This document shows, piece by piece, positions 4,784 to 31,318 of a DNA stretch of 64,000 nt. Below the pieces are notes generated by a model that saw only the letters and a program-made list of their open reading frames with translations, did not search any database and had not been told where the DNA came from. This DNA comes from Corbicula japonica (lineage: Eukaryota > Mollusca > Bivalvia > Venerida > Cyrenidae). Each line of letters begins with the position of its first letter. Position 1 is the first letter of the stretch. Location of the stretch: positions 682,001-746,000 of the forward strand of contig JAZAYU010000220.1 in the NCBI GenBank assembly GCA_038501625.1. Reading direction: 5' to 3'. The translations under genes were made by a program, and so were the position numbers.

Positions 4784-4873
4784 ATGTTGGAAGAGGACAG
4801 TTACCTAGGATTTGCCTATGATCCTAACTTGTCTGTGATGTGGCCTGCAGGAACTCTAGGAGCTAAACCTCTG
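4784..4873 (+). CDS. Rbfox: Rbfox alternative first coding exon 1a
   Basis: The ATG at 4784 opens 30 codons (starting MLEEDSYLGFAYDPNLSV, ending GAKPL) to a donor CTG|gtaaat at 4874. The exon ends in phase 0, as needed to join 11307 (HMVQNQ) or 7243. An in-frame TAG lies eight codons upstream of the ATG, so the start is well defined. The peptide looks protein-like and lies outside repeats. Vertebrate RBFOX genes are known to use several first exons joined in one phase; by analogy this would give a distinct N-terminus from a distal promoter. Not confirmed by transcripts. Confidence 0.55.
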
Positions 4874-5470: not shown

Positions 5471-5714
5471 TAACTCTTTACTCTATCGATACATCTTCAT
5501 TGCATGGGCGAAAATTGTAGATCCAGATCAGCTGGCACATTGGTGATGTCTGATCAGGATCTACACTGTATGTAGCTTTTAGATTCATTAGGTTATTTCT
5601 GACCAAAATGCAACCAGGGTAGATTCCCATCAGATGGCACGAATGTGACAGCTGATCTGGATCTACACTGTTTTCACATGCGAAAAACACTGTATAAATG
5701 GAGTGAAGAGTTAA
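5471..5714. mobile_element. Family A MITE, full length
   Basis: taactctttactct start and gagtgaagagttaa end with both internal GATC-rich hairpins. It lies downstream of exon 4784-4873. Confidence 0.85.
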
Positions 5715-6055
5715 ATTGAAGAAATGTCTGATTGCTGTTAAAATGTTTAGTTCTTAAGTTAAATGAAAAAACTGCACCCTTACACCCATGTAACATGATA
5801 TGTAAACAGTATTAAACCTGGATGCAAACTGCATGTTGGATAATTAATGCCTGTTATGTTCGAAATAACAGATCTCTGTTGCTTATTATGTAAAATAAAA
5901 ATAGTTTCTCAACCACTGTTCCACCTGGTCATTTTGAATGTCTGAGAGATTTGTTGCATTTTCAGAAAATTCAGTGTGGCCATTGTTGATGTCTTATTTT
6001 CAGTTAGGACTTTTTAATGTAAACTTATTTGAAATTCTGAAAATTCAGTTCATAG

Positions 6056-7242: not shown

Positions 7243-7371
7243 ATCAATTCTGAATCTGCCATTTACAAAGACATGGCAGGTTTGCTCAACATGTATCTTA
7301 CATTATTAACTCAAAATAAGAAATTGGGAATACCAACAGTAAATGGGGCATCCACTGCTTTGCAGCTTCAG
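7243..7371 (+). CDS. Rbfox: Rbfox alternative exon 1b (first or internal)
   Basis: The ATG at 7273 opens 33 codons (MAGLLNMYLTLLTQNKKLG ... ALQLQ) to a strong donor CAG|gtaagg at 7372, phase 0, fitting 11307. The same frame is open back to 7243, directly after a pyrimidine-rich acceptor (ctctttttag), and the TAG of that acceptor is the first upstream in-frame stop. So the segment can be read as an internal phase 0-0 exon of 129 nt following exon 4784-4873, or as a first exon starting at 7273. It is not part of any repeat seen here. Confidence 0.55.
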
Positions 7372-11100: not shown

Positions 11101-14100
11101 GTGTGTCTTAAGTTTTTTAAGATGTTATAAAAGGCCATGTCAGTTTGGTTTTTATAAATAAAAATTTCATAGCATTTTGTTTCAGCTATGCAATCCGGAG
11201 GTTTAATGCCTTTTGAAGGAGACAAAGCTGCTAGTCTTGCTAGCCTGAATGGTTAACTATATTATGTACAAGGAAAGCTTATATGTGTTATGTTGTATAT
11301 CTTCAGCACATGGTGCAGAATCAGCTCCCTCCTACCTACCAGTATGCCCAGACACCCGGGCTTGAAGAATATCAGCCAGTCATGGTACAAACTCCCGTCT
11401 CCTCTCTGCCCGCAGAGTACAAAACTGACCCATCAGTGTTCACATCCACAGCTATCACCACGGTGACAGCCAATGGTGGCGTAGAGCAGCAGACGGTAAG
11501 GACCAGGGGAAACTTAAATGTACGTGAAGTATTTTGATATTTCTAGGCATGGGTTTGCGGTGGTGGACTAACCAATATGTATGTACCTCCTTAGTCAATA
11601 CATTCACACAGGCTTTGGTTTTAACTAGTTTAGTTTCACTTTTGTAAGTATTGCGTATTTGGCAGTTAACTTTTCTGTTGAGAAGGATTTCATGCTAAAG
11701 TCAAGAGGGTTTGCCTCAATTTTAGTTTAGCTATCCTGTTGTACTGCTCTGCTGATAATTATAAAACTGAGATTTGAAACCAGTCACAAATCTTAAGGTT
11801 GTATTAAGGTAAATAACTCAGTATTCATGAAAGCAATTTCATGCCTATATCTCGTTTGGTAGAGGCGTACTAGTTCCGGAAGAGCGGATGTATATTTTTG
11901 GCACCGTATTTGCGATACCGCCTTTAAAATACGGTCTGTTCGGTTAGAGATCAGTAATTTTCTTACAAGTAAGTTAACCCCCCATTTGCTGTGTGTTTTT
12001 GAATAGATGAAATGTAGATCTTCACAGTCATATATGGTTGTCTAGAAATTAAGATGATAGAAATCATGTTAATGTGCATTGAATATTGGGAATTTAACAT
12101 TGAGGTCTATGGGAATTGGATTTACCTTGGTTCAACCTTAAGCATCTGATTCAGTGATTGGCTGAAATTGCGACCATTCGCCATTTCAGCCAATCAGATG
12201 ATTGAGATTTGAGACTGGTATCCAATCTCAAGTTGTATGATTTTGACCCATGGTTGAATATTTGTAGTCTACTGCACAAAATATTGCCTGTATAATTATG
12301 TTCTATTGATCTCAGACAAATTTCTCCTTAAAGATCTGAAGATATTTCATTATTTCATTCTATTGGACTGTATAATGATTAGTTGGGAGACTGGGAATTA
12401 GTTTCCTACCAAAATAATTGCTCTTGGGGAAGGGTCATGAGAGTCTGATGTAGTGAAGAGTTTTGTGCAATAACAGATTGTCACATACTAAATTATATGC
12501 TTGACCTAACTTTGGGCTGCTTCTGAAGTTGAGAAAGTGGGAATTTGATTTGATATGTGTTCAGTTAATACCTACATTAAAAGAATAGTAAAATTTGCAA
12601 TCCTTAGACAAATTTCAAATTAAATATATTTAAAAGCCATTTTGCTTCTGTAGCTAGAAACATAGAGTTGTTGGCAATTAAGATTTATCTAATGCTGGCT
12701 TAAACTTATTCAGATGGTTTTTCTGTGAACACATTTAAATTCAGGGGCAAAAAACATTGTTTTTCCTTTTCTAAAATCATGTTTACATGAAATAATGTTG
12801 TTTTTGGAGATTTTTGAGATTTAAAATGTTCAGATTGCAAATTTTCATAAAATAAATGAAAACTAGTACCCCAAGATGAAAACTAGTACCCCGCAAATAT
12901 TAATGAATTCACAGTCAAAGAGATGGTGCTTGTAAAGACTATCATATAATCAGCATCAGATTCCCAGGTAGTCAGATTGATAAAAAACAAACAAGATTAA
13001 ATCAAATGTTGCTAATAGTGAGTTTGCTAATGCATTAATATTAATTTAAAACTCATGGGACACTGTTAACTCGTTTAAACCATTAACTCACTAAATTGAT
13101 GTAATGGGTTTGACTTCCTTTAAATTTGAGCCATTCTGTTGGTTATTCATGGGGTTTTGTAACAGAATTTAGTAACTGTATGGATACACCTTTTATCACA
13201 TGAGTGACCTGTGTAAATCCAGATTCTCTTCCACATCCATGCACTCTGATTGATTTTGGTCAGAAATAATTAAATCTTAAAGACTAGTGTGGTTAGAAAG
13301 CAAAGAGGTGCAGGTTGATCTGGATCTACATTGGTTGCTAAGGAGAAAATGGATCAAATGAATAAAGGAATAGCATACAGTTTAGCATCAAATCAGGTTG
13401 CACTGATGTGCATGGCAATGTGACATAAGCAGCACTCAGTAACTAAAAGAATTTTTTCCTGTAAAACCCAAACTTTTTTAATTTACTTCACATTATGAGT
13501 GGACTAAATTTGAAATGTATATATTTTTAGTAGATATTTTCAATAAATTTTGCTAAAACAATAATAGTGGTTGGTCCTGCAAAAACCAAACTATTTTATT
13601 TGCTTTATAACTGTCATTTTTGATTATAAAATATAGATACATGTTCTGGTAGCAAATGCTTTAGAAACAAAGTGCTTTGGATGTGATGTTGCTGGGGGCA
13701 GATTAGCTGCTAATTATGACACATCCTGTAGCCCCTGAATTGATGGTCTTTGTACCAGATGTTAAGTGGAAGATTATGGATCAATACTAATATTATAACA
13801 GGATCCTGTCCTTGTGTGTGTCATTATCACATTGTCATCCATGCCAGCTTTTGTTTGTTCAGCACAGATCCTGGTTGTGATACTAACATAAAAGATGTTG
13901 CACTAACATATAACCTCAGTTTTGGATAAAATAATTTAGTGTTTGGATTGGGAATAACATCTAACATAACATTGGAACTCGGGATTGGAATGGGAGATAA
14001 ATAGTTTTTGATTCACAATATCAGATATCAGAATGCAGTTAATTGGATTAAATTTAAGAGTGAGGAAAATTTTCAGTCATTTTTCATTTGCATTTATTTA

Positions 14101-17100
14101 TGGAAATTGTTTGAGACTTGATAGCATAAAATTGGCTGTGAAATTAGTTGGAAATGCTCAAATACATATGTTTATCTCACTTCAGCTAAATACTGTAACC
14201 TTTTGTTTCTCTGTTAACATATACATTGACATTTCTATGCCTATGTTTGAAAATGCCATGAGAAATTCTGGGTAAACAATCCTTAGTTTTATTAATGTAG
14301 AACAGCTGTTTACTAAATTTAATGCTTTGATAGAGGAATATAAAGATATCTTTTAAGCAACATCATCAAAGACTGTAACAGTCTTTAGTCTTAAAGATGG
14401 TTATACTTACATTAAGAGAAAAACCCATGTTAATTTCAGTTAACCAATTAACACATTCAGTTTTGTAGTGAATATTAGATCTAATTCAATGCAGTTAGAG
14501 CATGTTTTAATAGCAACTGCACTTTAAACCTTGAATATTGATTTTAATTTATTAATACAATGTATTTTTTATTAATTAATTTCAGTTATCCAAGATCCTT
14601 TGTTAGTATATATGAAAAGTATAAAAACAAGAAGTCTTCTTTTCTAAACACATAAATACAAAAAAATTCAGACCTGTAATTAAAGAATTTAGATTAGAGA
14701 ATATTCTCAAATCCCAAGCATCAAATTGGCTGAAAATAATGGAAACAAGTCTACCATTTCAGCCAATCAGCTGCTTGAGATTTGAGACTGGTCTCCATTC
14801 CAGCTCGTAAATAAACCAATTTCATCATTATTTTTGAATTTAACTATTGTATTTGGTTTGTATATAGCAGACAGATCTAGTGGAGGGCGAAGCCGTGTCT
14901 CAGCAACAAAGCCCATCGGAAGCGGGCTCCAAGGTGGAGGCTCTGTCACCAGGCTCAGCACAAGGACCAAAGAGATTACATGTATCAAATATACCATTCA
15001 GATTTAGAGAGGCTGACTTAAGAAACCTCCTAGGGGTAAGTGAATATGACAAAAAACATTCTTTTAAAGTTTTTATCGGTGGACAAAAACTTTACAGGCA
15101 AAATTATCAAAAAAAAGTTTAACCCCACTCCATGGGATAAGGTGTTATGTATACATATATATGTTTGCTTTTAGATTATTTCTTTTCTGTCAGTTACCAG
15201 TGTAGATCCAGAATCAGACAGCACAAATATGTTTTGGCCGATCTGGATCTACACTGGTCGCATGTGCTATATATTGAGTTAATCATGAATAAAGTTTTGC
15301 CTTTGTAATCGAAAGGCAGCAGAAACTGTTAGTATTACTCATAAAAAAAATTTCAGAACTCAAAAAGTATAATAATATGTTTCATTTCTTTAAAAAGTTA
15401 TTTTTCCTACCATGCACAATTCATAGGAGATTTTGTCAGAAGCAGATTTTGTAACATATTGCTTTTACCAGGGTCCTAGTTTCCATTAACCCTTTCCTTG
15501 ATATATATGCATTTTTACTCGCGTGAGACCATTGTAGATCCAGATCAGCCAGCACATCCATGCCGTCTGATTTGGATCTGCACTGGTCACATTTTGGTCA
15601 GAAATAACCTAAAAAATCAAAAAGCGAACAGTTTAGATCCTGATCAGACGGCACAGATGTGCCGGCCGATCTGAACAGATGTAACGGCTGATCTGGATCT
15701 AAACTGTTCGCCCTAGCAATAAAGGTGTATCTATACAGGAAAGGGTTAAATGTTGAAAAGGTTGTTAAGAAGATTTGGTAAACACTGGTTTTCAGGAAAT
15801 CCAGGAAATTTGTGGTGGTGTTGACTAAAATTAATGATAAATCGCAGAACAACAACAAAAACTGATAAATATTACTTTGATAAACACCACCGTAGGTTGC
15901 ATGTCTTGTTCAGAAACATTATTATTATAAAATAAATTTCTCTAACAAATTGTTATAATGGTTTCTATAAATTGCAGCAATTTGGTGCAATTTTGGATGT
16001 GGAGATCATTTTCAATGAGAGAGGCTCTAAGGTAAGCCAGTTGTTGTTAATCTGTCAGATGTTTTCACAAACTTTTACACTACAAGCACTGAGAATGTTA
16101 AGGCTTGTCAGGGTCCAGGGTCTTCCTCGTCCGTGTGCCTAGCTGGACCAAACTCTCTGCACCTATGACTGGAACAACCTCATGCCTTATACTGGAACAA
16201 ATGCCTGTCTGTTCACATGTCTGGTACGATTGTCACGCTGTCAAGGTTTACTGGAACAAGCTTTCTTCTTAACTCTTTCCTCCATATGGCATGGGCCAAT
16301 AATGTAGATCCAGGTCAGTTTTCACAAATGTGCCAGCTGATCTGGATCTGCACTGTTTGCTCATGCAATAAAAGGCGTTTATGTTGAGGATAGGGTTAAT
16401 ATGTGACGGGAACAAATGTCTGTCTGCAAACATGACTGGATCAAGCTTCCTTCTGTACATATGACTGGAAAAAGTTTCCTTCTGTACACATGACTGGAAC
16501 AAAGTCAAAGAGAATGTAACAGTGCTTGTAGTACAACTTTTTCATTAATTGCAACTTGCTATTCGAACCTAGACTATGAGTTTATAATTAAGAATGAGTT
16601 ACGTTTGCAAAATGATGACATTAATAATTTCATATTTTGTAAGGATGTAATTTAAGTTAAATAAAAGCACAGAATATTTACTGATTTTAATTTAAATATA
16701 AAAATCTTTATTGAAAATTAAGAATGATATAATTGAGTCATTATTAATTATTTGTTTATAGATTTCAGATTTATTTATAAATTTCACAAGATGCATATTA
16801 ATCATCAATTTTCAAAAAATATCACAATTGGAAAAATTAATATATCAAGTACTTATTTAAAAATGAGCAAAACTGAAAAAAAATGTCAACTGATTTCTGT
16901 AAACAAATAAAGCTGATTATTATGAAGACTTTTTTTATCAGTGTGGAATAAACTTGAATCCAATGTTTCAAAATGTGACGGTTTTCTGAGGTTTAATACC
17001 CTGCCAGCCTCTTAATTAGTGGTTTTTTTAATTGTGGACACATTTTTGGGATAATTGAAGACTAAATGCTATATAAATTTCTCCAGTGCATTGAAATTAC

Positions 17101-17663
17101 CAAAGTTTGGCAGAAAGGATACATTATTGTTTGGCTAATTCATATCATGTTTTCAGAAATGCATAATGGCATTGCAAGTGGAGTAATCTTTATACATCTG
17201 ACAACATTGGATTCCAGTATACGTCATTCTGATTTTTATGCGATAAAATATGCAATGTGCGTCAAGATTCCATGTGGCTTCGAGCAAAACACTGGTTAAT
17301 GTGAAAATATTATAAAAAATTGCACAAGTTTATTCATAGGGTAGGAATTCTGAGTGCCAAGTCTTTTATTACCGGATCGGAGATTGGAACCAAACACTTG
17401 ATGTTAGATGCCACATGGAATAATGGTGCCAATCTTTATATATTATGAAATTAAGTCAAAATTGTCACATTATTGTTATGATGTGTTTAATGTTATGTGT
17501 ACTATGTATGTCAGTACATGCCAAATCACAGCTAGTGTGTTTTATACTCTGATTGTTGTTACGCCTGCCAATACCAGAATAGATTATGTGATGAATGTAC
17601 CCAAGAAGCTGCACATGTCTGTGTATGTGTATATGTTAGGTGTGAGAGCCAGTGTTTGTCCTC

Positions 17664-17700
<37 letters not shown>

Positions 17701-19693
17701 TCTGGGCCCAAGATCATAATACTTATCAGGAGACCAGTCTCAGATCTCAAGCAGATGCCTGAAATTTGAGACTGGTCTCCAATCTCAGTTTTATAACCTT
17801 GGGACCAGTCTGTTCTGTTATGTTAATGATGTCCCATGTGTATGTACATTTTGTACATTCTGTGTGTTTGTCTGTTTGTCCATTATGTCATCATAAGTGT
17901 GTGTGTCATTTTCTTTGCCTGTCCCCTTCACTGGCCAGGGAAGGGGTTTATCAAGGAAGTAAGGACCATCTGTCTGTATGTCTGTCCGTCTGTTTGTATG
18001 TGTATGAGAGGATGTGTGTGGCAGCTGTTTTCAAGCATGTAGATCATGTCGCTTACCTAGGCACTGGCATGTTCAAACTGTCATGTCGACTACGGCAGAG
18101 TTCGTGTTTCTTATCTGCGTAACTCCTTGTTTAACTTCAGATGACTATGTACTGTGATGTATTATACAATCAGAGGCATGTGTTATATGTTTTAATTTAA
18201 ATGACTGACTATGATTATTACAAAGATACATGTATTGACATTGATTCGTTTGCACGAATTTAATGCATGTTTCCTTATTTTTTCCTTCGTGCATGTAGGG
18301 ATTTGGTTTCGTAACTTTCCAAAATAGTGCCGACGCTGACAGAGCACGTGAGAAACTGAACGGTACAGTGGTTGAGGGACGCAAAGTTGAGGTGCATGTT
18401 TATTCATTATTTTGTCGTAGCACACAAAGACACTTAAGACCTATACATATAAAAACCTGTGCAGTATAAAGAAATGCCTGTACGTCGTTGTAAGTGTTTG
18501 TTGTTATTTGCCTTGTGTGTATAAGATCTATACGCATCTCGTTCGTTTTTTTCAATCCCCCCATTTGTCAGTGACAGTTTTATATATTCTTTTCTTATTT
18601 TTCACTGAGGCAATGAATTGGTGCATTTTGAGTTGAAATCACATGAAATGGATGACCTATTTTTTTTTACCAAAACATGCCTTAAATGTTATTCTCAGTT
18701 TTGTTGACGAGTACTGTTTTTCAGTTAGTGCAATTGGGACTGCAATATGTGTGCATTTTGGTTAAACGGAGTAGTTGTTATGTATTTTTCCTATATTCTT
18801 GGCTGTATTTGGCACCAGTATATTCCATTTATCTCTGTGTTATTACTGATAGTATGATCTTATCTGTAACACTGTTTTTTTAAGCCTTTACTTCATAGAT
18901 ACGCCTTTTATTGCATGGGTGAACAGTGTGAATCCAGATTAGCAGGCTAGACTGTGCAATCTGATCAGGATCCACACTGTTCACTTTTAAATTCATTAGG
19001 TTACTTCTGAACAAGGTTACTTATGATGTGTAGATCCTGATCAGATGGCGTGGATGTGGCAACTGATCCGGATCTACACTGGTCTCGCATGTTATAAAAG
19101 GCATATCGATGAAGTGAAGGATTAAAATGCCAATACCCCTTAGAGATTTTGAAAAAGTATTTCTGTTTGTCTGGCATTTCTTCATTCTGTGCTGTGTCGC
19201 AGTTATCTAACCCTGTCTTTGGTCTTTGAAAAACGAGAGAAAAGGTTATATTACAACAACACTTACAATGCGATTTTATTTATAAGGCAATACATACCTA
19301 AGTTCTCTGGTCCTTGATAGGAGATCAGCAAGTAGGTAGGTGATATCAAGTTTTCTTTTTCATTACTTTTATGCAATTTGTAACCCTTTTCTACCCATAG
19401 AAACTATTTACATCTCATGTGGGACATAAGTAGTCCCAGGTCAGCATGCATGTCAGTGCCGTCTGATCACTTTAGGTTCATAAGGTTAATTTTGTCTGAG
19501 AAGTAAACTGTAGATCCAGATAATACTGTGTGGATGTGCAGGCTGATCTGGATCTATATTGTCACAGATGGGATATAAGTGGTATTGATGGAGAAAAGGG
19601 TTAAGAGATAGGTATTTCAAACAATAATGTAAAATTGGTTGCATGTGGCACCATAGAAGACCAAAACATTAAAAAAAGATTCTAAGAAGATAA

Positions 19694-19750
<57 letters not shown>

Positions 19751-22700
19751 CAAAAGCAGGCCTAGTTTATTTCAACTCTTAGCTCTCAAATGTAACAGAC
19801 TCACTATTCTTTGAATGTAAGTTAGTAAATTTGTTGATCTTACGATTTTTTGCTAAAATTTATCCAATGAATGGCAAACTATCTGGACCCTGATCAGACA
19901 GTGCAGATAAACTGACTGGTCCCAAGGTTATAAAACTAAGTTCCAGTCTCAAATCTCAAGCATCTGATTGGCTGAAATGGCGACTGGTCACCATTTCAGC
20001 CAATCAGATGCTTGAGATTTGAGACTGGTTTCCATGCTCAGTTTTAAACCTTGACACTGATCTTGGTCTACACTGGTTGCAAATGTCACATTAGCTTTCT
20101 CTAGTAGTTTCTCCAGTTCTAATCAGGTTAGGTTATGATCCTCTTATATCACCACCTTAGTGCAATAACAGTATAAGTACAATCAAAATAAAAAGAAGTT
20201 AAACCGTTTTTTGCATTAAGATGACAGGAGAAATATTATTATGAGAGTAAACGTATATCAGTCTTTAGTAAACAGAACACCATATTGATCATGGAGATAT
20301 TCACAGCAGTCCGCCTCCAGGATTCCCTAAGGCTCCATGTAGCTGATACATCAATTCCAACTAATATTCAAACATTCAATGTCTGAAACCTATTTCCCTG
20401 GGGTGATATTCTGGAGTTTAGTGCTTTCTTTGAGCTGGCATCTGGTCTGTAACTGAAGATTATAAAACTGAGAATGGAAACTAGTCTCAAATCGCAAGCA
20501 TCTGATTGGCTGAAATGGCAACTGGTCGCCATTACAGCCAATCAGATGCTTAAGATTTGAGACTGGTTTCCATTTTCAGTTTTATCATCATTAGCCCTGG
20601 TCTGTAAATTCTGGCTGTTGATTATCAGAAGATAGAGCATTCTTCATCAATTACTGCTTATCAAACTAACCATCTTGGATAGTGTGATTAAGATTTATGC
20701 ATTTGAATTCATGACTTGCTTGTAATTCATTTATAAATATTTATTTACCTCTTGCTGTGAGTGACTCTCATTTTTTGTGAACTGCTTGTTTTTATGTAGG
20801 TTTTTGCAAGGTGATATTTTGCCTGCCAAGAAATTATAATGGTTTAGTTATTTCATTAATAAAAAAGAGGCTTTTGCGTTCTAAAAACTCCAGAAATATC
20901 TTTGTTTGATAAATACATTGCTTTATTTATGTAGATTTTAGAAATATTTTTGGTGCAATTGAAATTTGTTTGAAATACCTATCTCTTAGACTAAATTGTT
21001 TATCTTGGCTGAACATGAATGCAGTGTGTATTTCATGGAAAACCAGTTTGATTGATGTTAATACGGTTTTTAGCAGTCTTAGACCAGTCTTACATAAGAA
21101 AATACCTTTCCCAACTGACTCATATAACCTGACTGCAAAATGAACCACATATGCCTTTTAGTATTCAATAGTAGCTTCTGTAATAATAATAATAATAAAT
21201 GAAAAGATTGAAAATCATTTGTCCAGTATAATTGTGCTTTCAGGGATTCTCATGCAATATTTGTCATGAAAATGTCATATAATATACATATGTCCTCAAG
21301 TTATATTGCGATTCTATTTTGATCACATCTTGGCCTTATGTCTCGTATGGTTATTAACAGTTTCTTCATATGTTACTTGGTTTCTAGACAGCAGAAGAAA
21401 ATCCTCTTTAATCATTTCAGTAGTGCCAAAGTAATATCCTGCATCGGAGAAGAAAATCAATAGCATTTCTAGAATTTGGTCTGAAAGCTCATTTTGGGGG
21501 ATGAATTAGGTGTCAATGGCAAATATTGTATGAGAGATCCCAGTGTGAGAATTCGCACCCGTTTCCTGTATTCCCTGAATATGCGCGAGTCTTCATCAAA
21601 CAAAGAATATCAACTGAATTCACTTACTTTTTGGCATAATTAGATCTGTTTGGATGTCAAAATTTTGCGAGAAAATTAGTTTTCTGATGTCTTACTTTCA
21701 AAGGAGTTAAACCTTTTATTCCATGTATATAGCTTATAAATAGCCCTTATGCAACCAATGTAGATCCAGATCAGCTTGCACATCCATGCAGCCTGCTCAG
21801 GATCAACACTAGTCACTTTTAGATTCATTATGTTATTTCTGATTAAAAGTATAGAAGCAAACAGTGTACATCCAGATTGAAACTTATGAATGAGCTGGCA
21901 GATCTGGATTTATGCTGTTTGCAGATGGTATGTAAAGGGTAAACAGAGACTCGCTTAACAGGGATAAAGGAAAGCGTAAAAGTTTAATGAAATGCACATT
22001 TTTGTCCTTTTCTTAAAAGAAAATCATATTTCGATAAAAGTGTTCTCATTCTTTTCTGTTTTTGCGTAATGAAATACATCAAAAGGGTTTTACAGAACTG
22101 TCAACAACTGGTTCCAAGGTTTAAAACTGAGAATGAAAACCTGTCTCAAATCTCAAGCATCTGATTGGCTGAAATGGCGACTGGTTGCCATTTCAGCCAA
22201 TCAGATGCTTGAGATTTGAGACTGGTTTCAAATCTCAGTTTTAATATCTTCAGCACTTAGCATCTTCAGCTGTTACTTTTGAAGCCTTAAAATATAATGT
22301 TAATGACATTGCTGGGTTCAAGTTGTTGATTGTTCTATATCAATTCTCTCTCCAAAAATAGCTTACAACAGAATATTTGATTCTTGAGAGAATTGGTATT
22401 ACTCCTTCAGGATTGGATAACCATCTAATATGATCAATACATACATAAGTTTCATGATACATTATTAGCTTCACATGTTCCTATGTGGGTGTTAACTCCT
22501 TTCGTGCAAGTTAGTTACCCAGTCTTCAACAGAGCACATTTTTGTCTAGTTGGAGCAATAACTCTAATGGAAATGTACTTCTCTTATAATGTTATTTCCC
22601 TAGCAATCAAATTATGAATATTATAATTAAATTAGTAAACCTGGGAAAGGCATATATTCATACATCAAAAGCATGAAAGGTAGACCACATCACAGCTGTT

Positions 22701-25700
22701 TGATGCTCAAGAAGATTATCAGATCTCTGTAGTAGTTTTACAGAAGGTCATTATGTGTTACAGAATATTCTTTTCTTCAACACATATTTTGGGGAAGGGA
22801 GATGTCAATTTCATACTAAGGGGTTTATGCTTACACTGGTTTCCAACCCAGGAAATACATAATCATGGGCACATAGCTGAAATGAAAACCTTTACTTGCC
22901 ATTCTTATTAGTTTAAGCTTTATTGACTGAAAAGCAAACAGTGTAGATCCTGATATTACTGCACGGATATGCAGGCTGATCTGGGTCAACACTGTTGATT
23001 AGCACATAGATAAATTTAATTCACACACAGAAAAAATCAACATAATTATATAAATAGTATGAGAAGAGTTATCCCATCCTACAAGGAGTGCCCTTGTGTA
23101 TATGTTGCATTGAATGATGATGAGATTGTATGCTATGTTTGTATATACTCGGATTTCCTCATTGCTAATGTCTTACCATCCTTCGTCAGGTCAACAATGC
23201 TACTGCTCGTGTTATGACCAAAAAAACTGCTGTTGCACCTGCAATCCCAAATGGTAAGACAACGTAACATGAATGTTTTATTTACTTTTTTTGTCACAGA
23301 ATTTTTCGATACACATTCCAGAGCTTTCCTTAAAGATTTTGTTCAGTAACATTACCAAACTCAATCCTTACAAAAACTAATCTAATGGCAATTTTAAGTA
23401 TTTATGGTTTTCACAGAGAATTCTGATTATTGCTCTTTTTTCCTGATTGGCGGGGAATAGAAATTCAACTCGGGGAGAAAAATAGGATGAAATTAAGTAA
23501 AATTTGTGTTATGATGTATTATTTCTATGAAAGAGACCTAGCACAAAAGGTTACCATGGAGAACATTAATTTATGAAATATAATCCTTTGATAATCATTA
23601 GGCTTGTATCTTTGAAAATGTTCCAAAACAAAGATATTTGCACACTCCCCAAGATTTCAGGCATCATGCATTGAAAAGAAACAGCACGAGTCCATTTAGA
23701 CAAGAAATTAAGATCTGTGTATCTGCCCGGTACACCTGCATTCCTATCTTGATTGGATAGAAGCCATAATTATTGGATCTGATGCTAATATTTACCAGAA
23801 AAATACAACATTCCTTTGTTGTTTGAGGATGGAAGTTTTATGTAAATATTGGGGGGTATCTCTTGTAATATCTGTTATCCGCAGGGAATCTTCAGTAGAA
23901 TATAACGTCAGTGTTTGCTGTCAATCAGACAGTTCCTGTCATACTCTATCAGTACAGCCATATCTTTCTGTTAAAATTCCTGGCATTGTTTATGTCAGTT
24001 AGAATTTTCATTCCGCTATATTAAGCTCATGATAAGAAATATTCTGGAATATTGGGCAAGGTTCCAGCCCCAGTCGCTGCTGGTTATGTTCCCTGCTAGA
24101 ATAAAGTACATTATATACATATACTTGAAAATTTTAGTTATTACTGATTGTTAAATCTTTACTCCATATTTCTAAATTGTATCACATGTGCGACCAGTGT
24201 AGATCCAGATCAGCTGGCACATCTGTGCTGTCCGATCAGAATCTGCACTGTCGGCTTTTTGGTCAGAAATAACCTAATCAATTAAAAAGCGAACAGTGCA
24301 GTTCATGATGAGATGGCAAGATCTACACTGTTCGCCCATGCCATGAAGGCATTTATATGGAGGAAAAGGTTAAACCCAAAAATTAGTTTGAAGATCTTTT
24401 TACAACTTTCTTTAAATAACAAAATGTTTAATAATTCAGTAGCAGAAGCCTTGTCAGTGGGTGAACATGAAATGTAATGATATTGGGGGCAATATTGACA
24501 GCATTCACAGTGCAAGTGATGTATTAAAGATACCAAGTAACTGTGGGGTGAAAATTAGTGATTATTGATTGCTCCCTCAAGGTGGAAAATATGATATTGT
24601 GAGAAAATTGTTTTTATTTGTCGATCCCTCCTGCGATTTTATTTGCTCCCTCAGCAGAGGTGGTGGGTGGGGAAAAGGATAAAAGGTTGATAATAATCCC
24701 TCAGAACTAAGGTGGAAAATTGAAATGATATATTAGGGTGAAATATTTTTTATTGGTTGCTCCTTCATGCTCCTTCAGCAGAAGTGTGTGGGGGGGGGGG
24801 GGTGGGGGTGGAGAGGTCACAGTTTGATGATAATTTCTCCCTCAGTGGTGAAGTTAAATGATATTGACTGCTCCCTAAGTCCTGGTTCACAGCATGGTGT
24901 ATGCTTCTCTGTTGTTCTCAGAATCTAGCTGCAAACAACATTCAACATTGACCAATAACAAACCAACATGGAATCTTGTGCATGACAACTGGTTTCAGGA
25001 GTTACTTTTCAGAGCATAAGTAGAACTTGCTAAAAGATTAATACCTATGTCCCAATTCTATATTGCATAAAAAGTTTGATATAATATATATATAATATGG
25101 GTTGGATAAATAACCAGAATGCAGGTTGTTGGTCTTGTTTGCTCTCTGATTATTGATGTCATAATGAAACTGCTCGCATCCCTAATTTGAGCGTCTGTTA
25201 TGCAATACGATGCCAATTATACTGTGTGAGTAGATTATAATATAATGATTTTTAGAGATGCTAATTTCCCCTCCCCTCCTATAATACAGCCTTAATTCAA
25301 AACTTTGGAATGACGTTAAACACAATCCATTGCATAAAACAGGAAATGCATTTGCATTTATGTGCAAAAAACTGCTATGCCCTTCTACAATAACTTGCCT
25401 GAATTTTTCTGACATTATAAATATTTGGAAGAATGCTATATTATTTTTCTTTGTCATAAATGTGGTTGTGCATGATGTAGAAATGCCATGTAAATGAACA
25501 TGTTTTCCTTGTAGTTATATCGCCAGTCTCGGCAGCCGCTCTGCGAGGTGTGGCATTGACAAGAGGTCGTGCAACAGCAGCATTGGCTGCACGAGGAATG
25601 TACACAGCAGCAGCAGCGGCTCAGCTACAAGCTGCAGCTTTACGTCAGCCGACTCCCTTACCAACAGCCACAGCTTTACCATATGCCACGTAAGTATCCT

Positions 25701-28700
25701 GCAATGAAGAAGCACATGCACCCAAAATACACTTTTAAACTCCGTTGCATAAGAAAATATATTTTTTAATATCTTTAGAGCATTAATTTTAGTTGTTTTT
25801 TTTATTGCAAAATTAAACAGAAAGCACAACTCCTAATCTGAGTATGAAAGAATCTTTTTTTTTAATTATATAGTAAACAGACAACACACATTGTATATAT
25901 GAGCTCAGCAATTAGAAAAGATGTCTTTTAGTTGAAATAAATTCCTAAAATGATGTCACAAGCAGACAACATTACTTTTTAGCATTTCTTGGAAATCATT
26001 AGACAGTCTATTTAGTATGGTCAAAATTTGTAACAATTTTGATCAAAACAAAACAAAATCATATCATTTTTTTCGTAGGAAATTAAATATGATCTTGAGT
26101 TCTTATTAACAATGCGGAAAACTTACAATTCATCATTTTCATGTAAGACGCATTTCCCATTAGGAGGTTAGGGTCTATACTAATAGTTGCATAACTGACG
26201 GAAAGGGAATCAAGCAAGATTACAGCATGTGAAATCCTGTAAAATTTAGCACTGTATGTATCAATCCAGGGCCAGTAAATTAATGCAGTATCATTAATTT
26301 TCTGATGGCTTGAATTTTCACCTGCAATACCACTGTGACACAATTCAATTGTTGACCTCCTAAGCACGGAATGATAAATATTGTTTGTGAAATTCACATT
26401 TAGATTATCATGCTATAGTGATCTAGTGGTTTCATGGGCCACCAATGAAGATTGTTACTTTACCCTTTCCGCCACAGATACACCTTTTTAGCTCACCTGA
26501 GCACGAAGTGCTCATGGTGAGCTTTTGTGATCGCCTGATGTCCGTCGTCCGTCCGTGTGTCGTCAACTTTTTCTTCAAACGACTTCTTCTCCTGAACTCC
26601 TGGGCCAATCTTGCTGAAACTTGGCAGGAATGTTCCTTGCATGAAGCTCTTCCAAAGTTGTTCAAAGAAATCAATTCCATGCAGAACTCTGGTTGCCATG
26701 GCAACCGAAAGGAAAAACTTTAAAAATCTTCTTGTCTGAAACCACAAGGCCTAGAGCTTAGATATTTGGCATTTAGCATCCTCTAGTGGAACTCTACAAA
26801 GTTTGTTCAAATTATTTCCCTGGGGTCAAAATTGGCCCCGCCCCAGGGGTCACTTCATTTTACATATACTAATATAGGAAAAACTTTAAAAATCTTCTTG
26901 TCTGAAACCACAAGCTGAGAGTACTTTTGTAGTCAGGTGAGCGATATAGGGCCATCATGGCCCTCTTGTTTATATACACAGAGGTGCCATCTGATCAGGA
27001 TCTAAACTGTTCGCTTTTTTATTCATTAGGTTATTTCTGATCAAAATGTGACCAGTGCAGATCCTGATCAGATGGCATGGATGTGCTGGCTGATTTGGAT
27101 CTACAATGGACGCACATGTGTTAAAATGTGTATATATATGGAGGAAAGGATTAACCCTTTACTCCATGGATACCGCTCATATCCCATCTGCCACCAGTGT
27201 AGATCGGGATCGTCCTGCACATCTATTAAGTCTAATCAGGATCTACACTGTTAGCTTGTAAATTCATTAGGTTATTTCTGACCTAGAAGCAAGTTGTGTA
27301 TATCCTATTTGGATTGTACAGATGTTCAGGCTGATCCGGATCTTCACTGGTCGGACATGTGATATAAGCGGTACCCATTGAGTAAAGGCTTAATTTGAGC
27401 TATTATCATGTAACCGAGTAAAGCAAGAAATGTTAAGTGTTATTAACATTCTGTAGAGTATGCAAGTATTATATTTTCTTTTTGTTTCTTTGTGTCCCCT
27501 GCAGTCAAAGGCTACAGTAAGTCGCCAGTTGTTGTGCTGTTATAACACCCAGGGGTGTGATTCATCACCTTCCTATTATTGCAGTGTTTCATAATACATA
27601 TCAAAATTGAAAAAAAATGTTTGAAAATGCGACGAAATATTTCCTGTTTATATAGCAAAATGGTTCCAAGCCGATCACACCCTTGAATCCCCCATTCTGT
27701 GCATGCAGTGTTACAACATTTCTTAGATACTTGAATGGATTGATTTTGTAGTATTTTGATTGGTTGTGTTTTTCGATTAATCTGAGATCTTTTCAACAAT
27801 ATTTACTTGTAAATTTAATGGTAAAAGGAGAGCTATACTTGGTTTTTACAACAACTGAAAACAAAAATAGAAACTTATTTAATCATGACTGGTCAGCTAA
27901 TTAATTAATTTTATCACATGGACAACCAGTGTAGATATAGATCTGGATCTTGTTGGCTTTGATGTCAAATATAATAATATGACTCTGAAAGCAAACATTG
28001 TAAATCCTGATCAGATTGCTTGGATGAGCTGACTGATCTGGATCTACACTGGTGGCATATGTAATATTAGCTGTATTCATGGAACAAAGGTCTTTATAAT
28101 TATGTTAGAACACTTTAGGGTCGTCATTGAATAAAGTAGCATTTTTCTACTTGCATGCTGCCATTGCTTTTATAGACAGCATGAAGTTTGTTTGGCTGTT
28201 TTCATATTTAAGAGTGAAGTGATATTGCTCCATTTTTTAAAACACAGCATAAATAATTCTTTGTCCATACAACAGCATTAAAATAACTAAAACTGATTTT
28301 AACTGCATATACACTGATATTAATTTTCTGTTCAGACAGCAAAGTTTAATAAAAAAAAACAATCTTGGAAGTCTGATGACAGATTGATGCAGATTACCAT
28401 ATTACCCGGATCATAAAACTAAAACTCTAGACCAGTCTCAAATCTCAAGCATCTGGGCCCAAGATTACAAAAATGAGATTGTAGATCAGTCTCAAATCAC
28501 CAGCATCTGATTGACTGAAATGTTGACGGTTCAACGTAGCATTACAGTCATTCAGATGCTTGAGATTTGAGACTGGTCTCCAGTTTTAGTTTTATGATCT
28601 CGGGCCCAGATGTGTCGATTAATCCACTATTTAATGTTTCTCCTAGAATAATTTTAAACAATTTTCCAACATTATTTTTTTTACAGCATGCAGTATGCTG

Positions 28701-31318
28701 CAATGGATCCAACGTTTTTAGCAACATACGCTGCTGGAGCAGACCGTTACCAGCTTGTTACATCGCTTCCACAGGCCGCGGGAATCCCGATCTCAGCTGC
28801 CAGATATACCATACCAGCGATGGCAGGAGCAGCAGGTGTAACTTACGCTGCTGCAGGGTACGTAACTCTTCTCCTCAAGATTCATTGTTTTGAAAACATT
28901 TTAGCCGGTTTCTTGCATAATGTCAAACAGTGTTAAAATTATTTGGATACCTTATATGAAAAAACTTTTTAGTCTTCTTTTTTAAATGTTGTTTGCCTAA
29001 CCCCCTTTACTCAATCGATAGGCCTTTTTTGACATTGGCAACCAATGTAGATACAGATTCGCTGGCATATCCATGCTGTCTTATCTGGATCTTATTGCTT
29101 CTTGGTGAGAAATAAACTAATGAATCTAAGAGCAACTAGTTTAGATGAAGATCAGATGGCATGGATCTGTGCCCAAGATCATAAAACTAAAGCTGGAGAT
29201 CAGTCTCAAATCTCAAGCATCTGATTGGCTGAAATGGCGACCAGTCGCCATTTCAGCCAATCAGATCCTTGAGATTTGAGACTGATCTCAAATCTTAGTT
29301 TTGTGATCTTGGGCCCTGCTCTGTTCGCCCATGTCCTAAAAGGCATATAATGATATGGAGTTAAGTGTTAAAATAATTAAGTGCACTGACATTCAAATTA
29401 ATAAAATCCATACTTTATGTAGTATGTTAGATTGATACAATCAATAAGGTATACAGCAATAATTATTCATGTTTCCCTGAAGGCCAATTTTGCTAGAGAC
29501 TGGCTCATAATTCCATAAGCATTTGTTACAATATCACAGCTGTTGCTGTAATTAGATCTGTGAAATTTTACAGGTAGTTGTCAGTGATGTTAGAAGGTTA
29601 CAAATGATGTAGCAGAATGACACTAAAACATGTGCTGAAAAAATTAATACTGAATTTGGGATCCGTCCTCTTGAGATTTTAGGCAAGAGCGAACCCTTTC
29701 CTCCATATATACAGATATGTATACAGATTTTTATGCGACTGGTGTAGATCAGATCATCTGGCACATCATTGCCGTCTGATCAGGATCTGCACTGACCGCA
29801 TTTTTGTCAGAAATAACCTAATGAATCAAAAAGCGAACAGTTTAAATCCTGATCAGCTGGCATGGATGTGCCAGCTGATCTGGATCTAAACTTTTCGCCC
29901 ACGCAATTAAGATGTGTCTATGGAGGAATGGGTTTATGAGCTACCTGTTACCTCAGTATTTTATTTGAAACATTTGCTTTCATTGATTTGAAAGAGTAGA
30001 AACCAGAAGTGCCTAGTGTACGAAACCTGAAACTAGCATACACAGATGGTTTTCAGTGCACCAGATACTGTTTTGTAGAGTCCTTTGATGTTGAACTCTT
30101 GCAGGTTATCCTAGATTAAATGTTAAAGTGTATTGTACTGTTTATTATATACATGAACAACAAGAGTGAATACATAAACTGATATTGTTTTATCCCATGT
30201 GTAGCCAGTGTATATACATATAAGCCTGCACGTCTTTGATTTACAGTGTTTGTTTTAAGATTTGCTAGATTATTTCCACCCAAGAAGCGAAGATCTTGAT
30301 TAGCTTGCAAATCCTTGCAGTCAGATGTAGATCTACAATTGTCATACTTGTGGGATATAAGCTTTGTACATGGAATGAAGGGTTAAATCAAAACAGTCTG
30401 ATCTAGATCTACAATGGAGTAAAGGGTTAAAAAGTTGCGTGTTTTGTATTGAACAGGTACACAGGTCGTGAGTTGGCTGAAGCAGCATCGGCAAATCAAC
30501 TGCTCGGACACAGTATTGGACCAGTACCAGGATATGGGGTACTTTTCTTACCTAGTTATATCTTAACATAAAAAATTGTCATATGAAATTTGTAAACAGT
30601 TTGTTAGCGTAAAACAGCAGACTTGATTCATTGATCTCTCATTTGATTAGGGGCATGATTTAATCAGAGAAAAATGTTTCATAAAATGGATTTGTCATTT
30701 TACTCCTTTCACCATTTGGTGTACTTCAAATACCAAAATTTAAAAGGAAAATTTAAGAACTGTGATACATGTTGCTTGGAACTGATGTTAACTGTTCAAT
30801 AATAGTGAACTAGTAGGTGCAGTCAGAGTAGTCATGTGATTAAACACCTGGTGTATTCCTTTTGGTGTACTGTACCTATAAAGTAGTAGGTGCATCCAAA
30901 TTATTTATGATTTAACATTTCAGCACATTGTTCTAAGCCAGCTAAACCACTCCATTTGGACTTGCACGCAAGATCTTGGTTTTATGTTTTAAGTACGTAG
31001 TTAATAGCTTATTTTGGCTCAGTCATGGGATAAGCTAGTGGCTCTTTAGAGACTTTTTCTCCCATCTTCCCTTGAGGCCATTCATTTGTAAATACTTGTA
31101 ATAATCTGGGTTGAAGATTATAAAATTGAGATTGGAAACCAGTCTCAAATCTCAAGCATCTGATTGGCAGAAATGGCGACTGGCTTGAAATTTGTGACAG
31201 GTTTTCATTCTCAGTTTTATATTATTGGGACCAGATTTTGTTAAATAACAACACGATTTTGATTCTTTCCATACAGGCTGTTTACAGAGGTGCATACCAG
31301 AGGTTCACTCCATACTGA
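8017..31318 (+). CDS. Rbfox: Rbfox (Fox-1 family) RNA-binding splicing regulator, spliced CDS
   Basis: Join 8017-8109, 11307-11495, 14868-15035, 15978-16031, 18299-18391, 23190-23253, 25515-25689, 28687-28857, 30458-30539, 31277-31318: 1131 nt, 376 residues plus stop. All joins have GT/AG borders and matching phase. Seen: a single RRM at about residues 130-205 with RNP2 LHVSNI and RNP1 KGFGFVTF, followed by [10 protein letters not shown], and a C-terminus ending [11 protein letters not shown]. Known: Fox-1 proteins are mainly nuclear splicing factors that bind UGCAUG; sites downstream of an exon usually promote inclusion and sites upstream usually promote skipping. The 54-nt and 93-nt RRM exons match the vertebrate exon sizes. 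The N-terminal (1-129) and C-terminal (206-376) regions are low-complexity and diverge from vertebrates. Alternative N-terminal exons and a microexon are listed separately. Family identity is near certain; the exact transcript set is inferred. Confidence 0.95.
9526..9600 (+). CDS. Weak candidate: further alternative first exon of Rbfox
   Basis: ATG opens 25 codons ([20 protein letters not shown] ... SK) to AAG|gtttgc, ending in phase 0, so it could also join 11307. An in-frame TGA lies two codons upstream. The donor is poor (gtttgc). The peptide is charged and protein-like, but a run of this length can arise by chance. Confidence 0.25.
10944..11133. repeat. Direct duplication, two ~80-bp copies, 115-bp spacing
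   Basis: Copies 10944-11027 and 11059-11133 share caggagttatgattattg, the following gagaat..gtgt..ttaag block and aagatgttataaaa, with scattered changes. The pair ends about 175 bp before the exon 2 acceptor. Confidence 0.75.
11307..11495 (+). CDS. Rbfox: Rbfox exon 2 (N-terminal P/Q/T-rich region)
   Basis: 189 nt, 63 codons, phase 0 at both ends: acceptor cttcag, donor ACG|gtaagg. Encodes residues 32-94, beginning [18 protein letters not shown] and continuing with P, Q, V and T-rich sequence to GGVEQQT. The Met at 11310 could serve as a start when joined to a non-coding leader. No structured domain is expected. Codon choice is richer in G and C than the surrounding intron, as in the other exons. 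Confidence 0.93.
11757..12238. mobile_element. Family B MITE split by element E
   Basis: Left part ends caaatct near 11793, right part resumes aagcatctga at 12139. Joined, the halves form a normal B palindrome with a short internal duplication. Confidence 0.85.
11793..12141. mobile_element. Element E, ~347-bp MITE with terminal inverted repeats
   Basis: Ends aaggttgtattaaggtaaat and atttaccttggttcaacctt are imperfect inverted repeats; TAA/TTA flanks may be the target site. Inserted within a B copy. Only copy in this window. Confidence 0.75.
12851..12892. repeat. Short tandem duplication (~20 bp x2)
   Basis: gatgaaaactagtacccc occurs twice in succession. Confidence 0.7.
13178..13368. mobile_element. 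Family A MITE, degraded
   Basis: ggatacaccttttatcacatg, ggtcagaaataa and gatctggatctacattgg remain; ends are eroded. Confidence 0.65.
14704..14808. mobile_element. Family B MITE, truncated
   Basis: ctcaaatcccaagcatc ... gatttgagactggtctcc; outer ataaaactgag arms missing. Ends 60 bp before exon 3. Confidence 0.75.
14868..15035 (+). CDS. Rbfox: Rbfox exon 3 (linker and start of RRM)
   Basis: 168 nt, 56 codons, phase 0-0: acceptor tatatag, donor GGG|gtaagt. Encodes residues 95-150. The first 34 residues are an S/E/Q-rich linker beginning [14 protein letters not shown]; the RRM starts at [23 protein letters not shown]2 (LHVSNI) and the following PFRFRE loop match the Fox-1 family, where aromatic residues of this loop contact the UGCAUG RNA. 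Vertebrate proteins have RDPDLRQMFG where this one has [10 protein letters not shown]. Confidence 0.96.
15195..15262. mobile_element. Family A fragment
   Basis: One half-module only: cagtgtagatccag ... gatctggatctacactggtcgc. Confidence 0.75.
15486..15749. mobile_element. Family A MITE, full length
   Basis: TTAACCCTTTCCTTG start and AGGAAAGGGTTAA end, with ggtcagaaataacct centre. Clear TTAA at both ends. Confidence 0.9.
15978..16031 (+). CDS. Rbfox: Rbfox exon 4 (54 nt, central RRM)
   Basis: 18 codons, phase 0-0, [18 protein letters not shown] (residues 151-168). Acceptor attgcag, donor AAG|gtaagc. The 54-nt size and sequence agree with the vertebrate RBFOX exon; only single changes (A for K after QFG) are apparent. 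It forms helix 1 end, strand 2 and the loop leading into RNP1. Confidence 0.96.
16269..16399. mobile_element. Family A MITE, internally deleted
   Basis: TTAACTCTTTCCTCC start, one GATC-rich module, gatagggttaa end; only 131 bp, so half the interior is gone. Confidence 0.8.
17665..17699. repeat. (TGTC)n microsatellite
   Basis: About eight units; similar ctgtctgt words recur to about 18000. Confidence 0.9.
17702..17809. mobile_element. Family B MITE, internally deleted
   Basis: gggcccaagatcata ... gttttataaccttggg; central gattggctgaaatgg part lost, leaving aagcagatgcctg. Confidence 0.8.
18264..18269 (+). promoter_or_regulatory. Rbfox binding word TGCATG, 30 nt upstream of exon 5
   Basis: Exact TGCATG. 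Upstream Fox sites are known generally to repress exon inclusion. It is one of three within 135 bp around the 93-nt RRM exon. Confidence 0.6.
18290..18295 (+). promoter_or_regulatory. TGCATG adjoining the exon 5 acceptor
   Basis: Exact TGCATG immediately before the TAG acceptor (tgcatgtag|GG). Protein bound here would cover the 3' splice site and polypyrimidine end. Confidence 0.7.
18299..18391 (+). CDS. Rbfox: Rbfox exon 5 (93 nt, RNP1 half of RRM), likely regulated
   Basis: 31 codons, phase 0-0, beginning [18 protein letters not shown] and ending EGRKVE (residues 169-199). It supplies RNP1 with K168 of exon 4. The 93-nt length equals the vertebrate exon whose skipping yields an RRM-defective, dominant-negative Fox protein (established in vertebrates). 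Here skipping would remove 31 codons in frame. The donor GAG|gtgcat is weak and includes a TGCATG word; another TGCATG adjoins the acceptor. These sites are what the sequence shows; autoregulation in this animal is inferred. Confidence 0.96.
18393..18398 (+). promoter_or_regulatory. TGCATG inside the exon 5 donor
   Basis: The donor reads GAG|gTGCATG, so the Fox word begins at the T of the GT. U1 snRNA and Rbfox could not easily bind together, which would favour skipping when Rbfox is abundant. Confidence 0.7.
18879..19125. mobile_element. Family A MITE, full length
   Basis: TTAAGCCTTTACTTC start and GAAGTGAAGGATTAA end; attcattaggttacttctga centre. Confidence 0.85.
19381..19604. mobile_element. 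Family A MITE
   Basis: taacccttttctaccc start, ggagaaaagggttaa end; interior diverged. Confidence 0.8.
19695..19750. repeat. (GATT)n microsatellite
   Basis: About 14 uninterrupted GATT units. Confidence 0.95.
19919..20055. mobile_element. Family B MITE
   Basis: cccaaggttataaaactaag ... tgctcagttttaaaccttg; arms pair around gcgactggtcacc. Confidence 0.9.
20452..20597. mobile_element. Family B MITE
   Basis: ctgaagattataaaactgag ... ttttcagttttatcatc; palindromic core intact. Confidence 0.9.
21717..21942. mobile_element. Family A MITE
   Basis: TTAAACCTTTTATTCC start, tgtaaagggtaa end; gatccagatcagc and gatctggatttatgctg modules. Confidence 0.8.
22112..22254. mobile_element. Family B MITE
   Basis: ccaaggtttaaaactgag ... 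tctcagttttaatatcttc; core gcgactggttgcc. Confidence 0.9.
22926..23000. mobile_element. Family A fragment
   Basis: Right-hand half-module only: agcaaacagtgtagatcctg ... ggctgatctgggtcaacactg. Confidence 0.7.
23190..23253 (+). CDS. Rbfox: Rbfox exon 6 (end of RRM)
   Basis: 64 nt starting [19 protein letters not shown], ending in phase 1 (AAT G|gtaag). The [10 protein letters not shown] motif closes the Fox RRM and matches vertebrates, where the equivalent exon is 61 nt. The K/R-rich tract after the RRM may contribute to nuclear localisation (inference). Confidence 0.95.
24151..24374. mobile_element. Family A MITE
   Basis: TTAAATCTTTACTCC start, ggaggaaaaggttaa end; ggtcagaaataacctaatc centre. 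Confidence 0.85.
24787..24812. repeat. Poly-G tract
   Basis: Run of G broken by single T bases; may form a G-quadruplex in DNA or intronic RNA. Confidence 0.7.
25515..25689 (+). CDS. Rbfox: Rbfox exon 7 (Ala/Gln/Arg-rich C-terminal region)
   Basis: 175 nt, phase 1 to phase 2, residues 221-279: [18 protein letters not shown], then an Ala-rich stretch with [11 protein letters not shown] and [17 protein letters not shown]. Acceptor ttgtag, donor CAC|gtaagt. The position corresponds to the vertebrate Ala/Tyr region with an RGRGR motif; here R is present as [10 protein letters not shown]. Such regions mediate protein-protein contacts in the family. Many 'gcagcagca' repeats make it open in several frames. 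Confidence 0.92.
26458..27154. mobile_element. Family A MITE split by element C
   Basis: Left end ttaccctttccgccac to 26488; right part resumes gaggtgccatctgatcagg near 26981 and ends ggaggaaaggattaa at 27154. Confidence 0.85.
26489..26975. mobile_element. Element C (AGCTCACCTGAGC repeat)
   Basis: Starts ttagctcacctgagcacg and ends gtcaggtgagcgatataggg ... ccctcttgtt. Contains gtccgtcgtccgtccgtg and two copies of ggaaaaactttaaaaatc (26710, 26877). I recognise this type as a common dispersed repeat of bivalve genomes. No coding capacity seen. Confidence 0.85.
27151..27393. mobile_element. Family A MITE sharing its TTAA with the previous copy
   Basis: TTAACCCTTTACTCC start directly at the right TTAA of 26458-27154; ends agtaaaggcttaa. 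Confidence 0.85.
27505..27516 (+). CDS. Rbfox: Candidate 12-nt in-frame microexon of Rbfox
   Basis: TCAAAGGCTACA lies between a long pyrimidine tract ending tgtcccctgcag and a consensus donor gtaagt. Between phase-2 exons it changes ATM to ATQRLHM, adding four residues without a stop. A TGCATG lies at 27700-27705, 184 nt downstream, in unique sequence. Microexons of this size are common in neuronal genes and are often promoted by downstream Fox sites (known). Inclusion here is inferred. Confidence 0.5.
27899..28091. mobile_element. Family A MITE, degraded
   Basis: attttatcacatggacaac, gatctggatctacactggtgg and atggaacaaagg remain. Confidence 0.7.
28404..28453. mobile_element. Family B left half, truncated
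   Basis: cccggatcataaaactaaaa ... caagcatct stops where the next B copy begins. Confidence 0.8.
28454..28607. mobile_element. Family B MITE
   Basis: gggcccaagattacaaaaat ... agttttatgatctcgggccc; core diverged (gttgacggttcaacg). Confidence 0.85.
28687..28857 (+). CDS. Rbfox: Rbfox exon 8 (C-terminal Tyr/Ala region)
   Basis: 171 nt, phase 2 to phase 2, residues about 279-336: [20 protein letters not shown] then [32 protein letters not shown]. Acceptor ttttttacag, donor AGG|gtacgt. Spaced Tyr residues resemble the vertebrate C-terminal Tyr-rich segment required for assembly into larger splicing complexes (known for RBFOX); sequence identity is low, so the role is inferred. Confidence 0.92.
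28997..29371. mobile_element. Family A MITE split by family B
   Basis: taaccccctttactc start, ggagttaagtgttaa end; interrupted at 29171-29315. Confidence 0.8.
29171..29315. mobile_element. Family B MITE nested in A
   Basis: gcccaagatcataaaactaa ... gttttgtgatcttgggcc; perfect core gcgaccagtcgcc. Confidence 0.9.
29691..29936. mobile_element. Family A MITE, full length
   Basis: gaaccctttcctcc start, tggaggaatgggtt end; gtcagaaataacctaatg centre. Confidence 0.85.
30180..30386. mobile_element. Family A MITE, degraded
   Basis: gttttatcccatgtgtagcc ... ggaatgaagggttaa; a second end fragment (gatctagatctacaatgg) follows to 30430. Confidence 0.7.
30458..30539 (+). CDS. Rbfox: Rbfox exon 9
   Basis: 82 nt, phase 2 to phase 0, [20 protein letters not shown] then GPVPGYG (to residue 363). 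Acceptor tgaacag, donor GGG|gtactt. It follows ...AAG of exon 8 and resembles the vertebrate 'GYGRVYAA...TIGP' segment in layout. The donor is moderate. Confidence 0.9.
30540..31276 (+). other. Rbfox intron 9
   Basis: 737 bp. A partly deleted family B copy (31113-31233) lies near its 3' end; otherwise no recognised feature. Confidence 0.85.
31113..31233. mobile_element. Family B MITE, asymmetric deletion
   Basis: Left arm intact, right arm lost from gtcgcc to ttgaaatttgtgac. Confidence 0.8.
31277..31318 (+). CDS. Rbfox: Rbfox terminal coding exon 10
   Basis: [13 protein letters not shown] then TGA at 31316-31318. The ending matches the family-typical YRGGYNRFAPY terminus. Acceptor tccatacag, phase 0. 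It continues without a visible donor into 3' UTR. Confidence 0.94.
   Translation, partial: AVYRGAYQRFTPY

Follow-up and report, generated by a model that had tools for sequence, protein, structure and literature searches.

Does a bivalve RBFOX gene carry the splice switch through which mammalian RBFOX proteins limit their own activity? In mammals, RBFOX3 makes Rbfox2 skip exon 6 and a dominant-negative form results (excerpts of PMC3126832), and this form and its loop are also described in excerpts of PMC5577181 and PMC6884704. The DNA analysed here, hereafter the window, is a stretch of 64,000 nucleotides from the clam Corbicula japonica, in which the exon at 18299-18391 is flanked by three TGCATG words. 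We consider it likely that this exon is the equivalent autoregulatory cassette exon of the RNA recognition motif (RRM) in a bivalve, repressed by RBFOX and probably giving a dominant-negative product when skipped. A report on this exon in molluscs was not recognisable by title or abstract in open-licence PMC; an Octopus paper names Rbfox (PMC5736919).

Most of an RBFOX gene lies on the + strand of the window, where coding exons were placed by tblastn with five relatives (Table 1). The best protein match is a full-length form, the 352-residue record P0002 (96%), followed by records from Mercenaria and Ruditapes (89%), Mactra (87%), Mya (80%) and Dreissena (78%), and the best named matches are the fox-1 homologues of the bivalves Mercenaria and Ruditapes. 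Among PDB entries, 4zka, 7vrl and 2n82 match best (E about 1e-43), all three named RNA binding protein fox-1 homolog 1, with 2cq3 and 2err next, and the clam RRM differs from RBFOX1 of 4zka at 10 of 81 residues by manual count on the alignment. Pfam finds one RRM_1 match in the clam protein, a single RRM of the Fox-1 type as in the RBFOX family. Judged by these matches, the clam gene is an RBFOX gene of the bivalve type.

Table 1. Features of the clam RBFOX locus, in window coordinates.
Feature	Position	Strand	Basis or remark
Alternative first coding exon, MLEEDSYLGFAYDP...	4784-4873	+	Matches N-terminus of record P0011
Alternative first coding exon, MAGLLNMYLTLLTQNKKLGIP...	7273-7371		Fits N-terminus of Mya P0012 by eye
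N-terminal coding exon	11307-11495 or 11307-11519 (two donors)	+	tblastn with relatives
RNP2 exon (LHVSNIPF)	14868-15035; tandem TAGCAG acceptor (14868 or 14871)	+	tblastn with relatives
Exon upstream of cassette, 54 nt	15978-16031	+	tblastn with relatives; donor GTAAGC
TGCATG site 1	18264-18269	+	Begins at -35 from cassette exon start
TGCATG site 2	18290-18295	+	-9 to -4; abuts TAG acceptor (18296-18298)
RRM cassette exon, 93 nt, phase 0/0	18299-18391	+	Encodes RNP1/beta3, alpha2 and first beta4 residue
TGCATG site 3	18393-18398	+	Begins at +2; its T is common to donor GT (18392-18393), donor GAG|GTGCAT
Exon downstream of cassette, 64 nt	23190-23253	+	tblastn with relatives
C-terminal-domain exon	25515-25689	+	tblastn with relatives
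C-terminal-domain exon	28687-28857	+	tblastn with relatives
Coding exon	about 30458-30538	+	tblastn with relatives
Coding exon	31280-31315	+	tblastn with relatives

Further variation is apparent in the 5' half of the gene. Two alternative first coding exons offer N-termini like those of P0011 and Mya P0012. At the tandem acceptor TATATAGCAG (14861-14871), the choice of 14868 or 14871 gains or loses one Gln, which is present in P0002 (QTDL) and absent from Ruditapes P0005 (TTDL). Similarly, use of donor 11519 rather than 11495 in the N-terminal exon adds VRTRGNLN, a stretch found in P0002, present as VRARGNLN in P0009 and not in P0005.

What would the protein lose if the cassette exon were skipped? 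The coordinates that the initial annotation gave for the skip junction, 16031 to 23190, are correct; such a join keeps the frame, and the skipped product is open throughout. Skipping removes 31 residues (145-175 of the P0002 model), comprising beta3 with RNP1, alpha2 and the first residue of beta4, and the Pfam RRM_1 score drops from 63.1 bits in the full form to 19.7 bits in the skipped form, below the cutoff of 20.7. In AlphaFold2 models, the mean pLDDT of the RRM blocks is 80-87 in full P0002 versus 50-59 in the skipped Ruditapes record P0009, a rough comparison because the runs used different alignments (21 and 22 sequences). The earlier proposal that this is the RRM exon skipped in vertebrates was supported: it corresponds to the 31-residue segment that forms an alternative RRM exon elsewhere, and its in-frame loss breaks the domain. 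With beta3 (RNP1), alpha2 and the beta4 edge gone, the skipped product should not bind RNA, and in the clam it would probably dampen RBFOX activity as a dominant negative.

Skipped forms of this exon are annotated widely in related species. A query of 42 residues spanning the skip junction, which favours skipped forms, gave 3727 matches. Among the best 120 of these, 112 lack exactly these 31 residues (NERGSK|VNNAT) and 8 are full. Within the 112, molluscs account for 10 rows from seven bivalve species and 5 from three gastropods, and other lophotrochozoans for one brachiopod (Lingula) and one annelid (Paralvinella); the rest come from chelicerates (12, from seven species), insects (36), vertebrates (44) and others (3). 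As these are the best 120 of 3727 matches, a group absent from them may still have the skipped form. Ten pairs of full and skipped forms, from nine molluscs and from Lingula, were compared, and each pair differs by exactly 31 residues; the segment is 31 residues long in each of the 142 full forms measurable by script. A search with shorter length limits returned 48 proteins, including 8 newly seen with the junction, none of them a mollusc by name. One Mya record (P0252) runs from the exon into other residues and looks like a mispredicted join.

The skipped isoforms are mainly predicted records, and the exon might be constitutive in this clam, or the skipped isoforms elsewhere might be artefacts of annotation; the nearest record, P0002 (96%), is indeed full-length. 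However, the identical junction recurs across many species and in records that carry several different source tags. Three of these records (P0175, P0191 and P0214; tag lgn) lie on short contigs, which may be assembled transcripts, judging by length and source tag. We regard a constitutive exon, or artefactual skipping elsewhere, as extremely unlikely. The initial annotation had named a lack of skipping as an argument against the switch; this is countered, in other species, by the annotated skipped isoforms of seven bivalve species and across Bilateria. These records suggest that the clam exon, too, may be alternatively spliced.

The question then becomes whether the sequence around the exon points to RBFOX itself as the regulator. 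RBFOX-type sites over the splice sites of the RRM exon are a defining feature in vertebrates, and Damianov and Black are said to have reported in 2010 that Fox elements overlap splice sites in Fox-1 and Fox-2. A sequence scan found such sites overlapping or touching both splice sites of the clam exon (Table 1). The initial annotation had placed three TGCATG words around the 93-nt exon, two of them touching its splice sites, and their positions hold on the + strand: the second copy ends at the TAG acceptor and the third starts with the donor's T. All three read TGCATGT, the DNA form of UGCAUGU, the heptamer known from Fox-1 structure work; in the window, 13 of the 39 + strand copies of TGCATG are followed by T, these three among them. 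Site 1 shares one base with TTAAT (18260-18264), a candidate branch point whose A, at 18263, is 36 nt away from the exon; the candidate is defined by a yTnAy match only, and other such matches have their A at 22 and 55 nt. The seven coding exons between 11307 and 28857 were tested for nearby TGCATG. The six other than the cassette exon have no TGCATG within 300 nt downstream and none within 45 nt upstream; copies lie farther upstream at -80 (exon 15978-16031) and -46 (exon 25515-25689).

The initial annotation called the donor GTGCAT weak, and this stood for its intron side, as it is the only one without a G at +5 among the 8 donors scored (7 exons), the other seven being GTAAGN or GTACGT. It did not stand for the donor as a whole. 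Four of the other seven donors have the same total consensus match of 6/9, and with this tie the reading of the cassette donor as the weakest overall was dropped. In terms of duplex energy, the donors of the exons starting at 11307, 14868, 15978 and 23190 are stronger than the cassette donor, but that of 25515-25689 is not. A special RNA fold holding the exon was also considered and rejected: the region 18240-18440 folds with -42.8 kcal/mol and its shuffles average -45.9 (z 0.72), indicating no special RNA structure at the exon.

How readily could chance have placed these words? The window is AT-rich and holds more TGCATG than expected, with 71 copies observed on both strands versus 50.4 expected, a count reached in none of 100 shuffles. 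The earlier estimate of about one chance copy per 4 kb per strand was too low for this DNA, where the + strand has 39 in 64 kb, or one per 1.6 kb. The cassette exon region is the sole + strand spot in the window with three TGCATG within 135 bp; clustering alone is modest evidence, since 11 of 300 dinucleotide shuffles (3.7%) also give such a + strand cluster somewhere. The position of the words at the splice sites is more telling than their clustering. TGCATG falls within 10 nt before 9 of 3678 AG dinucleotides and overlaps positions -6 to +8 of 26 of 3763 GT dinucleotides, which gives a joint rate of acceptor and donor overlap of about 1.7e-5 per random exon, with the rates supplied by the same window, the observed sites counted in and the test framed after the sites had been seen.

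The exon could also be alternative through other regulators, with the words a by-product of a window rich in TGCATG. The excess over expectation (71 versus 50.4) and the 11 shuffles in 300 with a comparable cluster speak for this, as do two fish-like paralogue records (P0268 and P0270) that seem to be without the words. The joint overlap of about 1.7e-5 per exon speaks against it, as do the sharing of the full heptamer TGCATGT by all three words and the fact that the overlap falls on the very exon with a known mammalian RBFOX loop (excerpts of PMC3126832). On balance, we find coincidental words quite improbable.

The two fish-like records came from a comparison in which intron read-through open reading frames served as a proxy for the exon flanks; among 277 proteins, only P0268 and P0270 were readable in this way. 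Presumably they represent fish rbfox1l, as they carry a VVTKKPQ stretch like that of Hemibagrus P0271. No TGCATG was apparent at their readable splice sites when back-read by eye from the residues, and the arrangement at the splice sites may therefore not hold in every RBFOX paralogue. Scans of two contig collections, viral_contigs and genome_contigs, did not find an RBFOX locus. With the 81-residue RRM as query, viral_contigs gave 24 pattern matches and no relatives, and with alignment A1 it gave 110 pattern matches, with 11 loci at 30-43% that we took as generic RRMs. The genome_contigs scan gave 124 pattern matches with one relative, an archaeal RRM at 41%, and the pattern TGCATGNAGGGNTTYGGNTTYGTNAC had no matches in the contig scan.

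If RBFOX does act on its own exon in the clam, the anatomy lends itself to a simple switch. With scarce RBFOX, U2AF/SF1 and U1 would recognise the exon and full-length protein would be made. With abundant RBFOX, the protein would occupy three copies of UGCAUGU: the one at -35 beside the candidate branch point, the one at -9 that abuts the AG, and the one at +2 within the U1 site. Bound RBFOX would then mask the acceptor and a donor that lacks the G at +5, and perhaps the branch point as well, and exon definition would be blocked. The 54-nt exon would be joined to the 64-nt exon (16031 to 23190), and the resulting protein would keep the frame and its N- and C-terminal domains and lose beta3 (RNP1), alpha2 and the beta4 edge.

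The direction of the effect might also be reversed, in that binding of RBFOX, particularly at the donor, could raise inclusion and make the loop positive or mixed by position. RBFOX sites downstream of exons generally activate and those upstream usually repress; site 3 falls in the intron part of the donor, which favours activation, but two of the three sites precede the exon. In MYH9, RbFox bound at the donor of exon A2 compensates for the weakness of that site and raises inclusion (excerpts of PMC13158602), yet the mammalian homologue of the clam exon is skipped upon addition of RBFOX3 (excerpts of PMC3126832). Activation by RBFOX is accordingly an unlikely reading of this exon, and repression is the one that we carry forward.

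Comparison with known systems places the proposed repression in a wider frame. As in the RRM exon of mammalian RBFOX1/2/3 (exon 6 of Rbfox2), skipping in the clam means an in-frame loss of half the RRM. On the mammalian side, RBFOX3 raises skipping of the exon and rat Rbfox2 has a '-93' isoform (excerpts of PMC3126832, PMC5577181 and PMC6884704), whereas regulation of the clam exon by RBFOX is proposed. The clam exon also resembles that of the Drosophila Fox homologue, for which an equivalent alternatively spliced exon is reported (excerpts of PMC3126832). The autoregulatory exon of MBNL, conserved across Bilateria, is a further parallel, as a deeply conserved loop of a splicing factor whose outcome is a protein of altered function and not decay; unlike the clam exon, it belongs to a different protein and controls localisation, not RNA binding (excerpts of PMC10773944). 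The MYH9 A2 exon shares with the clam exon the presence of RBFOX-type sites at a weak donor, and RBFOX acts on the donor there, but in that case inclusion is promoted and RBFOX does not act on its own gene (excerpts of PMC13158602).

By analogy, these likenesses suggest that the clam exon fits the self-limiting mammalian switch and that the switch may be very old in animals. More tentatively, and with somewhat less than even confidence, we propose that self-repression of the RRM exon, through RBFOX sites embedded in the splice sites, was in place in the urbilaterian RBFOX gene, and that this cis-arrangement, along with the skipping, was kept in bivalves and vertebrates, with selection for the overlapping site keeping the donor weak. 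The lophotrochozoan cis-anatomy is new here; the mammalian loop was already known and the fly equivalent already reported. With exon and frame shared between a bivalve and mammals, a skipped form annotated across Bilateria and the clam sites lying on the splice sites, two questions can be put to a direct test: did a self-repressing splice switch, cis-sites included, already exist in the last bilaterian ancestor, and can an exon needed for full function keep a donor weak on its intron side because of such a switch?

Two minor observations concern the remainder of the window. The TGCATG at 25469, 46 nt before the C-terminal exon 25515-25689, may mark a further RBFOX-controlled exon. In addition, short open reading frames in which VDPDQ or VDPNQ precedes a similar stretch recur on both strands (for example at 5478-5753, 15480-15674 and 26970-27158) and resemble copies of a dispersed repeat.
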